Positions 30,725 through 34,453 of a DNA stretch of 64,000 nucleotides are shown one piece after another. Below the pieces are notes generated by a model, which was given only the letters and a program-made list of their open reading frames with translations, had not been told where the DNA came from and ran no database searches. The position numbers and the translations under genes were made by a program. The stretch's first letter is position 1. Each line of letters begins with the position of its first letter. The stretch is taken from assembly GCF_000016785.1 (NCBI RefSeq), contig NC_009486.1, positions 310,001-374,000 of the forward strand. Direction: 5' to 3'. Source of the stretch: Thermotoga petrophila RKU-1 (GTDB taxonomy: Bacteria > Thermotogota > Thermotogae > Thermotogales > Thermotogaceae).

Positions 30725-32638
30725 TCATCTGATGTTCAGCCTCTCTTCAGCCGCTTTGAGAATCGCCCCCAGCATCTCCGCGTAAGACATCCCCGCGATC
30801 TTTGCCATTTTTGCAAGATGCCCATCCCAGCACCATCCGGGATTCGGATTCACTTCAAGAAGCTTCGGGTTACCTTCGGCATCGAGCCTCCAGTCGAATC
30901 TGCAGTAATCTCTACACTCAAGTCTTTCGAAGAGTTTCAAACAGCAATCGATGATGAACTTCTCCGTTTCCTCGGGAAGGTCTGCCGGAATGGACTTTAT
31001 GTTCCAGTACGGGGAGTCCGGCAGCCACTTCGCCTCGTACCCACATATCCTTGGAAGCTCTGGAGGGAGCGCGGAGTAGTCTTCCTCTATTATCGGCAGT
31101 ACCATGTAAGAATCCGGTGGATTTCCTATTATACCCACGCTCAGATCCTTTCCTGTCAAGAATTCTTCGACCAGCACAGGTTTATCGTAACCGAACTTAT
31201 TCCTTATCTCTGAAACAGCATTTATGAGTTCTTCAGGTGTGTACACAACACTTTTTTGTGTTATTCCGAAACTTGAATCCCCAAAGTTGGGTTTCACGAT
31301 GGCAGGAAAAGGAAATGGTAGTTCGAAAGTGGTGTCTTCTGGTTTGATGAAGACAGCTCTTGGAACAGGAATACCCATCTCCCTTGCGATTCCTCTGATG
31401 AGGGACTTATCGTAACAGAGGACGAGCGTCTGAGGACCTGAACCGGTGTAGGGGATTCCCAGCATTTCCAACAATGCTGGGACATGGGCTTCTTTCCTGG
31501 GATCGTTGTTGAAACCTTCATCGCACAGATTAAAGACATAGTCAATCTTCCCTTTCAACTTCATCAGGTCAGTGATCAATGTGTCGTGATTATCGAGATA
31601 GGAAAAGTTATACCCTTTCAAGCTTCTGAGAGCTGCTTTCATCTGATCAATGGTGTAAAAATCATCTTCATCGAAAATTGAATTCGGTTTCAGATGATCT
31701 GGTTTTCTGGGATCTCCCAGAACGACCACCACGTTCTTTGTGGTTTGTTCAGGTTTTTTTCTGACAGGGGTCCATTCTTTCTTTGCAACAGCTGTTACTA
31801 TGATCCTTCTTTCCATCATCCCAAGATCCTGGTTTCTCTGCGATGTGGGAGAAAGCTCACCATGGAATTTCACATCGCTGAATCCCGCCGCTTTCAGAAG
31901 ACCTTCCAGTTCTTCATGTGTGTAAAGACGCTCCGCGTAGAACTGATCCGCTATAACTCCCTTTTCGGCGTTGACGATCACCTCACGTGAAATGAGCCTT
32001 TTCCCATCAACCGAAAGAGATCGCTCTCTGCAGACGAAATGTTTCTTGTCGATCCATTCCCAAGACCTCGGCTGGAAGTTGTTTTTCAAATATTCTCCAT
32101 TCGCCACATCGATGAGAATTTTTCCCCATGGCTTCAAAACCCTGAAGACTTCTTTGAGAACTTTTAAATCTTCCTCCACTGTTTCGAAATAGCCGAAACT
32201 GTTACCAAGGATCAACACCACATCAAATGTATCAGGAGAGTACGGTAGTTTTCTTGCATCTCCTTCTCTGAACTTGACGTTCAGCCCCTCTTTCTTTGCC
32301 TGATTTTTTGCTTTTTGAATCAAATAGTGAGAACGATCGAGCCCCTCGACGTTTCGGAAACCGCGTCGCGCCAACTCGAGAGAATGTCTGCCGTGGCCAC
32401 AACACAAGTCAAGGATGTGATCATCTGGAGAGAGATTCAACACGCGCGAGAACAGATCCACTTCTTCTCTGGTAATGTTTATATCGTCCACCACATCTGC
32501 ATCTGTTTTTAGATAGAGCGAATTGAAGATACGACTCCACCAGTCAGGCTCCACATGTTCTTCCAGATCCGTAACAGGTCCCAAAAATCTTCTGTACTTC
32601 CTCTGAATGTTCTTCCTTGGAGATCCGTTGTTCTTCAT
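30725..32638 (-). CDS. SAM methyltransferase / D-Ala-D-Ala-ligase-like ATP-grasp fusion
   Basis: 637 aa in one unbroken frame. About residues 40-285 are a class I methyltransferase: motif I ILDLCCGHGRHSLELARRG, motif II LDRSHYLIQKAK, acidic EGDARKLPYSPDTFDVVL and motif GKILIDVANGEYL. About 305-637 are an ATP-grasp ligase of the D-alanine:D-alanine ligase superfamily: NLCDEGFNNDPRKEAHVPALL, YTGSGPQTLVLCYDKSL, FPAIVKPNFGDSSFGI (lysine and small loop), VLVEEFLTGKDLSVG, and the C-terminal magnesium site CRFDWRLDAEGNPKLLEVNPN. Ligases of this kind join a carboxylate, through an acyl phosphate, to an amine. The joined methyltransferase suggests that one enzyme both methylates and couples an amino acid or peptide. 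Substrate unknown. ATG with GGGGGG upstream. An intragenic inverted repeat lies at 31457-31482. Confidence 0.85.
   Translation of the reverse strand: MKNNGSPRKNIQRKYRRFLGPVTDLEEHVEPDWWSRIFNSLYLKTDADVVDDINITREEVDLFSRVLNLSPDDHILDLCCGHGRHSLELARRGFRNVEGLDRSHYLIQKAKNQAKKEGLNVKFREGDARKLPYSPDTFDVVLILGNSFGYFETVEEDLKVLKEVFRVLKPWGKILIDVANGEYLKNNFQPRSWEWIDKKHFVCRERSLSVDGKRLISREVIVNAEKGVIADQFYAERLYTHEELEGLLKAAGFSDVKFHGELSPTSQRNQDLGMMERRIIVTAVAKKEWTPVRKKPEQTTKNVVVVLGDPRKPDHLKPNSIFDEDDFYTIDQMKAALRSLKGYNFSYLDNHDTLITDLMKLKGKIDYVFNLCDEGFNNDPRKEAHVPALLEMLGIPYTGSGPQTLVLCYDKSLIRGIAREMGIPVPRAVFIKPEDTTFELPFPFPAIVKPNFGDSSFGITQKSVVYTPEELINAVSEIRNKFGYDKPVLVEEFLTGKDLSVGIIGNPPDSYMVLPIIEEDYSALPPELPRICGYEAKWLPDSPYWNIKSIPADLPEETEKFIIDCCLKLFERLECRDYCRFDWRLDAEGNPKLLEVNPNPGWCWDGHLAKMAKIAGMSYAEMLGAILKAAEERLNIR
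31457..31482 (-). repeat. Intragenic 10-bp inverted repeat
   Basis: TCCCAGCATT and AATGCTGGGA are perfect arms with a 6-nt loop, within the ligase half of the fusion gene. No T-tract follows. It may be chance from codon choice (PALLEMLGIP). Confidence 0.4.
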
Positions 32639-32767
32639 TTTTTAAATTCCCCCCTGGATAGTTTTTGACTTTCTGAAAGTATCTATTACTCCGGTTATCA
32701 TTACATCTCAATCGACTGTACAGATAACTTATCATTAAGTAATGATTAAATAATTATTAAATACGAA
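32639..32767. other. AT-rich gap between corA and the fusion gene
   Basis: 129 bp, very AT-rich. On the minus strand TTGAGA and TAATAG are 17 bp apart (weak promoter), and TAATGATAA occurs twice. No terminator for corA is evident, and no small frame with a ribosome-binding site was seen. Confidence 0.3.
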
Positions 32768-33823
32768 TCACAGCCACTTCTTTTTCCTGAAGTAGATCAC
32801 CATGATGACAGCGATCACACCCATAACAGCGAGAACTGCAGGATAGCCCCATTTCCATCTGAGCTCCGGCATGTATTCGAAGTTCATTCCGTAGATACCC
32901 GCTATGAAGGTGAGAGGCATGAAGATCGTCGCTATGATGGTGAGCACCTTCATCACTTCGTTTGTTTTGTTACTTACACTCGAAAGATACACATCAAGAA
33001 GACCGCTCACGATGTCTCTGAAGGTTTCTACGGTGTCTGCGATCTGAATAGTGTGATCGTATACATCTCTGAAATATGGGACCGTTTCTTTTTCTATAAG
33101 AGGAGGAACATCTCTGTAAAGAGAACTCAACACTTCTCTCAACGGCCAGATCGTCTTTCTCAGTTCAACCAGATTTCTCTTGAGTTGATGTATCCTCTGA
33201 ACTGTCTCTTTTTCAGGTCTTTCGAGCACTTCTTCCTCCAGTACATCGATCTCATCACCGATCTTCTCCAGCAGGACGAAATAGTCATCTACCAGTGCAT
33301 CTATCAGTGAGTAGAGGAGATAATCCGCTCCCTTCTTTCTTATGATTCCCCTGTTGTATCTGATTCTTTCCCGTACGGGATCGAACACGTCCCCTATCTT
33401 TTCCTGAAACATAAGAACGCAGTTTTTTGTGAGTATCAAACTGACCTGCTCCGATTCCAGTTCATGAAGATTTTCATCATAGGTGAACATCTTCAGAACG
33501 ATGAACACGTAGTTTTCGAAAAACTCCACTTTTGGTCTCTGATGCACATTGAGGATGTCTTCGAGCACGAGAGGATGAATACCAAAGAACTCACCTATCC
33601 TTTGAACCACATCCGTCCTGTGTATGCCTGTTATGTTTATCCAGGTGGGTGTTGAAGAATCTCTGAAGGGAAGAACGGATTCGACATCTGTGGTTTTGAA
33701 CTCGCGAAATTCCTCTATGGAGTAATTCATCACTTCAATCTCAAAATCTTCCCTGTACTTCCCTGTGTAAACGAGCGTTCCTGGGGGGAGACCTTTCTTA
33801 GCAGACAGCCTCTTTTCCTCCAC
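32768..33823 (-). CDS. corA: Magnesium/cobalt channel CorA
   Basis: 351 aa, same length as the structurally studied T. maritima CorA. CorA is a homopentameric channel for Mg2+ with a funnel-shaped cytosolic domain. The signature GMN is at 312-314 in AGIYGMNFEYMPEL; TM1 runs from about 292 to 312 and TM2 from about 326 to 345, with a basic tail KKKWL. The regulatory Mg-site residues known from the T. maritima structures fall at the right numbers here: D89, D253, D277 and N288. A handful of other positions differ from my memory of TM0561, which suggests a sister strain or species rather than MSB8 itself. Minus strand, upstream of the fusion gene. Confidence 0.98.
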   Translation of the reverse strand: MEEKRLSAKKGLPPGTLVYTGKYREDFEIEVMNYSIEEFREFKTTDVESVLPFRDSSTPTWINITGIHRTDVVQRIGEFFGIHPLVLEDILNVHQRPKVEFFENYVFIVLKMFTYDENLHELESEQVSLILTKNCVLMFQEKIGDVFDPVRERIRYNRGIIRKKGADYLLYSLIDALVDDYFVLLEKIGDEIDVLEEEVLERPEKETVQRIHQLKRNLVELRKTIWPLREVLSSLYRDVPPLIEKETVPYFRDVYDHTIQIADTVETFRDIVSGLLDVYLSSVSNKTNEVMKVLTIIATIFMPLTFIAGIYGMNFEYMPELRWKWGYPAVLAVMGVIAVIMVIYFRKKKWL

Positions 33824-33904: not shown

Positions 33905-34453
33905 TCACTTGAGGAATTTCGAAACGAACGGCGAAGTTTCACCACGCCTCATGAAGTGACCAGATGGCCCCTCTCCGAGGAACTCGGAGAACCAGGATTC
34001 GTGTTCGATCTCTTCGTTCAGAATAGCAAGAGACAGTTCGTAGGTCCTGTGATCTTTACCCGCGGTCATGTTGCATATCTCGGTGTACCCTTTCACCGCA
34101 CATCTTTCAGCGGCAACGAGCACCCTCAGAATCTCCTGAACAGTTGGTTTGTCCGGAAGTCTTGCTGGTGGACATGCAGAGAGATCGTGGAACTCCTTCA
34201 TGCAATCTGGAAGTTTTCCACCGAGCTCGTAGATTCTGGGAACAAGTGCTTCGAAGTGATTTCTGTCTTCGATTCTTGCGACTTCCGCAATCTCTTTGAT
34301 GGTTTCTCCCTCAAGTCCTATGAGGTTCGCTCTCAAGATGGTGTAGTAGTAATAAGTCGTGAGTTCGGCCGCCGCATTCTTGATCAGAAGTTCCAGCAGC
34401 TTATCGACATCAACCCCTGCTTTTTCCACCATTTCCCTCGCCACTCTCGCCAT
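33905..34453 (-). CDS. Ferritin-like DPSL (Dps-like, thioferritin) protein
   Basis: 182 aa, all helical. Ferritin-type carboxylate ligands appear as AELTTYYYYTILRANL (E in helix A), IEDRNHFEAL (E..H, helix B), AAERCAVKGYTEIC (helix C) and LNEEIEHESWFSEF (helix D, ExxH). A C-x8-C pair (CAVKGYTEIC) next to the di-iron site is the hallmark of archaeal/bacterial Dps-like 'thioferritins'; two more cysteines lie in CMKEFHDLSAC. These cages store iron and remove hydrogen peroxide. The role fits an anaerobe's oxidative-stress defence. Own promoter with a leader of about 85 nt and own terminator: a single-gene unit. Ribosome-binding site GGAGG 7 nt before the ATG. Confidence 0.82.
   Translation of the reverse strand: MARVAREMVEKAGVDVDKLLELLIKNAAAELTTYYYYTILRANLIGLEGETIKEIAEVARIEDRNHFEALVPRIYELGGKLPDCMKEFHDLSACPPARLPDKPTVQEILRVLVAAERCAVKGYTEICNMTAGKDHRTYELSLAILNEEIEHESWFSEFLGEGPSGHFMRRGETSPFVSKFLK

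Follow-up and report, generated by a model that had tools for sequence, protein, structure and literature searches.

A single open reading frame on the minus strand of the 64,000-nucleotide stretch of Thermotoga petrophila RKU-1 analysed here (the window) encodes a protein in which an N-terminal SAM methyltransferase is fused to a C-terminal ATP-grasp ligase (Table 1). The earlier note had read the 637-aa frame as these two enzymes, and Pfam domains and fold models bear this out; both motifs that it quoted, LDLCCGHGRHS and FDWRLDAEGNPKLLEVNPN, were found in the translated protein. Read on the plus strand, this interval (30725–32638) shows nine stops; that strand is not coding. A CorA gene adjoins the fusion gene, and beside CorA lies a gene for a DPS-type ferritin of an archaeal family (window positions 33905–34453; NCBIfam Arch_DPS, above cut-off).

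Table 1 Features of the fusion gene and its immediate surroundings, in window coordinates.
Feature	Residues	Position	Strand	Observation
Whole fusion gene		30725..32638	(-)	ATG at 32638, 637 codons plus stop, stop ending at 30725
AGGGGGG, likely ribosome-binding site judged from sequence		32649..32655	(-)	10 nt 5' of the fusion-gene ATG
CorA Mg2+/Co2+ channel gene		32768..33823	(-)	Directly upstream of the fusion gene; neighbour, putative link only
SAM methyltransferase domain	17-285	31784..32590	(-)	Rossmann core and beta-rich cap; Pfam Methyltransf_25/31/11
SAM-binding motif I, LDLCCGHGRHS	76-86	32381..32413	(-)	D77, C80, G81, G83 and R84 invariant (n=143)
Methyltransferase cap, presumed acceptor site	188-265	31844..32077	(-)	Strands in the model; putative role
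Inter-domain linker	286-299	31742..31783	(-)	Variable; least conserved part between the domains
ATP-grasp ligase domain, Ddl fold	300-634	30737..31741	(-)	Pfam Dala_Dala_lig_C; Foldseek to Ddl structures
KPNFGDSS	449-456	31271..31294	(-)	Aligned to 3r23 and VanA; K449 in 143/143, S456 in 142/143
YEAKW	534-538	31025..31039	(-)	Ddl/VanA alignment; K537 and W538 invariant (n=143)
NPNPGWCWDGH	597-607	30818..30850	(-)	N597, C603, D605 and G606 invariant (n=143); putative role of D605/C603
Segment missing from close relative G091 (L258)		30728..32762	.	Flanks 96.6% and 99.3% identical

The locus has at least 581 relatives, the best 80 of which are all near full length with 69–80% identity, and these full-length homologues from unrelated genomes (at least 80) run counter to the possibility, raised in the earlier note, that two separate genes had been joined by an assembly error. 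An assembly chimera is ruled out by the hundreds of independent homologues and by the 143 full-length bacterial and archaeal copies that make up our conservation alignment. Two other Thermotoga genomes carry full-length copies (96% and 90% identical), and dN/dS among Thermotoga copies is 0.024–0.055 in both halves, indicating strong purifying selection. Distance matrices of the methyltransferase and the ligase agree across the family (r = 0.82); the halves thus evolve together, which is what a single fusion passed on in one piece should show. An AlphaFold model of the full protein (mean pLDDT 87.6, pTM 0.75) shows both domains folded, with moderate confidence in their relative orientation. Conservation and predicted fold together strongly support the catalytic competence of both halves. 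The two domains might nevertheless be chemically unrelated, or one of them only regulatory, with the fusion reflecting shared regulation; this would fit the variable linker at the junction, and any channel between the two sites is putative, given the moderate confidence in domain orientation. We consider this explanation improbable, as both active sites are equally invariant and the fusion has not been split, the genomes searched holding no unfused near relatives beyond contig-end pieces and broken copies. The next-best unfused matches reach at most 38% identity for the methyltransferase (in host genomes) and at most about 43% for the ligase.

The ligase half was recognised by Pfam as Dala_Dala_lig_C (residues 421–627, E = 3.1e-27), and Foldseek against the PDB matched it to whole Ddl enzymes (TMt 0.70–0.84). 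It had been described as complete-looking, and alignment and fold match indeed delimit a complete domain (about residues 300–634) that keeps its catalytic residues. K411, K449, K537, W538, R580, D582, N597, C603, D605 and G606 are invariant in 143/143 copies and E595 is conserved in 141/143, which, with the fold match, places the domain in the ATP-grasp superfamily (K411, K449, R580, D582, N597 and E595). In E. coli Ddl numbering, K449 corresponds to K144, S455/S456 to the S150 loop and K537 to K215, N597 being a retained metal ligand; the Ddl ATP, metal and phosphate residues matched in the fusion are K97, K144, K215, R255, D257, E270 and N272. In an alignment with Bacillus Ddl and VanA, conserved residues of the fusion fall at the Ddl ATP lysines, catalytic arginine, metal triad and serine loop, so that formation of an acyl phosphate followed by amide synthesis is very likely the chemistry of this half.

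The designation as D-Ala-D-Ala-ligase-like thus holds for the fold but not for the substrate, since the acceptor pocket departs from Ddl at defining positions. W538 stands in place of Tyr216, and WCWDGH in place of the carboxylate-binding Ser281 region; Trp538 and Gly606 occupy the Tyr216 and Ser281 positions in 143/143 copies. Scores remain below the Ddl family cut-offs (127.9 versus 245.65 bits for TIGR01205; 137.1 versus 243 bits for PRK01372). As the residues that recognise D-Ala are replaced (Tyr216 by Trp, the Ser281 region by an invariant WCWDG), the fusion is, judged from its sequence, not a peptidoglycan ligase. A D-Ala-D-Ala ligase, or a Van-like D-Ala-D-lactate/serine ligase, with an accessory methyltransferase is almost certainly not what the gene encodes: in both sequence and fold the ligase half matches Ddl and VanA best, but the best Ddl model yields 137 of the 243 bits, another Ddl-like gene is present in the window's genome, the fusion occurs in archaea without murein, and Tyr216 and the Ser281 region are replaced in all 143 copies. 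In six genomes, archaeal or uncharacterised (G103, G104, G109, G117, G119 and G121), the fusion is the only Ddl-like match at 1e-10, so that there it would not serve peptidoglycan.

The methyltransferase half was assigned to the class I SAM methyltransferases on the basis of Pfam matches above cut-off (Methyltransf_25/31/11, with Methyltransf_25 covering residues 75–172 at E = 1.9e-22), the invariance of D77, G81, G83 and D101 in 143/143 aligned copies, and the AF2 model of the domain alone (pLDDT 89.1, pTM 0.88). Ten further residues are invariant in the cap (W193, E194, W195, R204, E205, R206, R218, E219, D231 and Y234; n=143). Structural matches to the model include NmbA, CypM, CcbJ, glycine sarcosine N-methyltransferase (GSMT) and TylM1; the nearest solved structure by sequence is NmbA (PDB 9ri2), which is also among the closest by fold. 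Most of the closest structures (NmbA, CypM, GSMT, TylM1) are enzymes that N-methylate amines or amino acids, with C- and other methyltransferases also present, and from these neighbours we infer methylation of nitrogen rather than of oxygen, sulfur or carbon.

The proximity of NmbA raises the possibility of an N-methylated low-molecular-weight thiol, in which the ligase would couple cysteine to a partner and the methyltransferase would methylate the cysteine nitrogen in the manner of NmbA (PMC12719100). The ligase motif regions contain an invariant C603 and a near-invariant C372 (n=143), which would suit such a product. We nonetheless regard it as unlikely, since identity to NmbA is only 26–27% and no cysteine-related gene recurs near the fusion. 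Among 27 host genomes, BshC was above cut-off in two and present as fragments in one; by the search used it is missing from the other 24, including the window's genome, so that the substrate would not in general be bacillithiol, which is mostly excluded.

The fusion is no isolated curiosity but belongs to a large and very tightly conserved family that spans bacteria and archaea. Full-length copies with 60–80% identity occur in Asgard archaea, the methanogen phylum, Atribacterota and about 20 other phyla; among the matches listed, hosts include Asgard, Methanophagales, Altiarchaeota and Nitrososphaerales on the archaeal side and Atribacterota, Planctomycetota, Aminicenantes, Chloroflexota, Zixibacteria, Omnitrophota, Cloacimonadota and others on the bacterial side. 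Prevalence is highly variable, with the fusion in 31/50 genomes of Atribacterota, 26/148 of the Asgard phylum, 44/295 of the methanogen phylum (complete genomes among them), 8/294 of Planctomycetota (with a 52% branch), 6/199 of Acidobacteriota (fused) and 1/301 of Chloroflexota. Whole-genome searches usually returned one fused copy per genome. In one member (L011:2143-4290) the start typical of the family is partly duplicated internally, so that its N-terminus carries a second, incomplete copy (LGPDQDIEEHVHPDWWRNIFNHLYLKPD).

The family tree mixes phyla, with Thermotogota, Planctomycetota, Methanobacteriota, Chloroflexota and Zixibacteria each requiring at least two placements on well-supported branches, to which misbinned contigs may contribute. 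A tree distance of only about 0.02 separates the nearly identical copies in L017 (assigned to Methanophagales) and L020 (assigned to Nitrosotalea), so that a foreign contig is probably present in one of these bins. Even the genus Thermotoga shows a patchy distribution: the segment missing from G091 is a presence/absence unit of one gene with its upstream region, with no clear direct repeats at the empty-site junctions, and in a second genome of the genus (G092) only fusion codons 455–637 remain, with a stop, beside CorA. The lack of the segment in the first genome and the remnant in the second indicate an accessory gene that Thermotoga has lost on one or more occasions. No match was found in IMG/VR, and no full-length match on plasmids. 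The fusion proteins form a discrete, uncharacterised and horizontally mobile family of bifunctional enzymes.

The surroundings of the fusion gene are almost random across the 143 loci. When 61 neighbours upstream and 68 downstream were scanned with Pfam for a shared operon partner, the matches were mostly singletons, which argues against a multi-gene pathway. In 59 loci, Rfam detected no riboswitch or structured leader at the fusion gene; the cobalamin riboswitch that follows it closely in one locus (L005:4403-4612) belongs to the next gene. Neighbourhoods of the closest unfused methyltransferases and ligases were uninformative. In about eight lineages, a gene for a CorA, MgtE, CitMHS-type or MscS protein lies no more than three genes from the fusion; such genes almost never occur at a greater distance, one weak MgtE match sitting seven genes away. 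CorA is the immediate upstream neighbour in Thermotoga and an Atribacterota clade and lies downstream in Aminicenantes. MgtE directly precedes the fusion gene in L018/L004, and a CitMHS-family transporter does so in a Methanosarcina-like clade; in Altiarchaeota and Lokiarchaea the CitMHS-family gene is found downstream, as is MscS in ANME-like loci. These families were chosen after inspection, most lineages show no association and the neighbours vary, and we treat the association as a lead rather than a test; the fusion is perhaps linked to ion or osmotic homeostasis.

We lean, somewhat beyond even odds, towards a self-sufficient bifunctional biosynthetic enzyme that combines amide formation by the ligase with SAM-dependent methylation, draws on common metabolites and needs no partner genes. 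The C-terminal ATP-grasp domain would bind ATP and two metal ions, phosphorylate a carboxylate and couple this to an amine, so that an amide or a dipeptide-like compound results, and the N-terminal domain would transfer the methyl group of SAM, most likely onto a nitrogen of the same molecule, either before or after ligation. The fusion of the two domains would be explained by one passing its product on to the other as substrate, and as no partner gene travels with the fusion, the substrates would have to be common cellular metabolites. A combined methylation and amide-forming step had been proposed previously; it is the most economical reading, with the catalytic residues kept, but the accompanying analogy with mycosporine synthesis finds no support, as no pathway gene accompanies the fusion anywhere.

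The product would presumably be a small molecule. Modification of a macromolecule, with the ligase extending a protein, a peptide or the tail of a cofactor by an amino acid and the methyltransferase capping the new amine or terminus, seems rather unlikely. Precedents exist in RimK and MptN, ligases that add amino acids to such acceptors, and in CypM, which methylates a peptide N-terminus and is among the best structural matches; the extreme conservation would also suit binding of a conserved partner. Yet no candidate substrate gene recurs near the fusion, patchy presence even in Thermotoga would be odd for modification of core machinery, and by fold the ligase most resembles the Ddl family, which acts on small molecules.

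It is unusual for a 640-residue two-enzyme protein, alone in the genome, to keep 60–80% identity between hosts as distant as Thermotoga, Methanosarcina-like methanogens and Lokiarchaea, and its tight conservation points to a single strongly constrained chemistry whose product is, as far as searches show, unnamed. More speculatively, and with less than even confidence, the fusion may by itself carry out the whole synthesis of an N-methylated amide, serving as organic solute, metal ligand or cofactor, in anaerobic bacteria, methanogens and Asgard archaea, repeatedly acquired horizontally and tied to ion balance. As hosts include Thermotoga and what look like cultured Methanosarcina-group genomes, study of the family could reveal a metabolite common to much of the anaerobic biosphere.

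Other ATP-grasp neighbourhoods were also observed. Tandem pairs of Ddl-like ATP-grasp genes occur in L248, L251 and L252, followed in L248 and L252 by a GNAT-like gene and accompanied in L251 and L252 by a gene resembling KamA-type aminomutases (names by sequence reading); these loci are candidates for a beta-amino-acid peptide pathway. In Thermotogota, a 2,3-aminomutase gene of the lysine/glutamate type (L094:1264-2535) adjoins a Ddl-like ATP-grasp ligase, and in L093, L100, L102-L104, L106, L108, L109, L111, L112 and L114 a Ddl-like ATP-grasp gene adjoins a family of about 480 aa that has no NCBIfam match and, in one member, a weak Pfam match to MutE (methylaspartate mutase E). A related methyltransferase within a 688-aa frame (G006:C3:38686-39369) and a related ATP-grasp within a 726-aa frame (G115:C136:9711-10490) are possibly other fusions.

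The earlier note knew of no characterised enzyme with this domain order, and in agreement, neither Pfam nor NCBIfam has a curated family spanning the whole protein, and the literature searched yielded no description of a methyltransferase–ATP-grasp fusion and no paper naming the family; the main text of a survey of archaeal fusion proteins does not mention a methyltransferase–ligase fusion (PMC11237513). The mycosporine pathway (OMT and MysD) likewise uses a methyltransferase and a Ddl-like ligase, but as separate clustered genes, and no mycosporine genes were found near the fusion. Ddl (3r5x, 1iow) and VanA share the whole ATP-grasp fold and the ATP, metal and phosphate residues, whereas the fusion has an added methyltransferase, the two pocket replacements, a different N-terminal loop, an archaeal as well as bacterial distribution and scores far under the Ddl family cut-offs. 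The closest unfused ligase, a stand-alone Acidobacteriota ATP-grasp protein (L236, G980; 42% identity), has the motifs CD.G..ND and NPNP.W..DGK in common with the fusion and differs in lacking the methyltransferase, C603 and W538. NmbA, whose target in bacillithiol is the cysteine nitrogen (PMC12719100), is the best-scoring methyltransferase structure and has the GRH motif I and SFGYFE motif in common with the fusion, but it is unfused, its cap differs and most fusion hosts are without bacillithiol synthesis. The published NmbA-family threshold is >25% identity over similar length, and the 26–27% identity of the fusion extends over one domain of a protein that exceeds twice the length. Glycine sarcosine N-methyltransferase and CypM have a common fold with the fusion and N-methylate small amines or peptide amines, but are about 20% identical and have no ligase. 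What is new in this type of fusion is the way in which two well-known folds are combined, not the kind of system.
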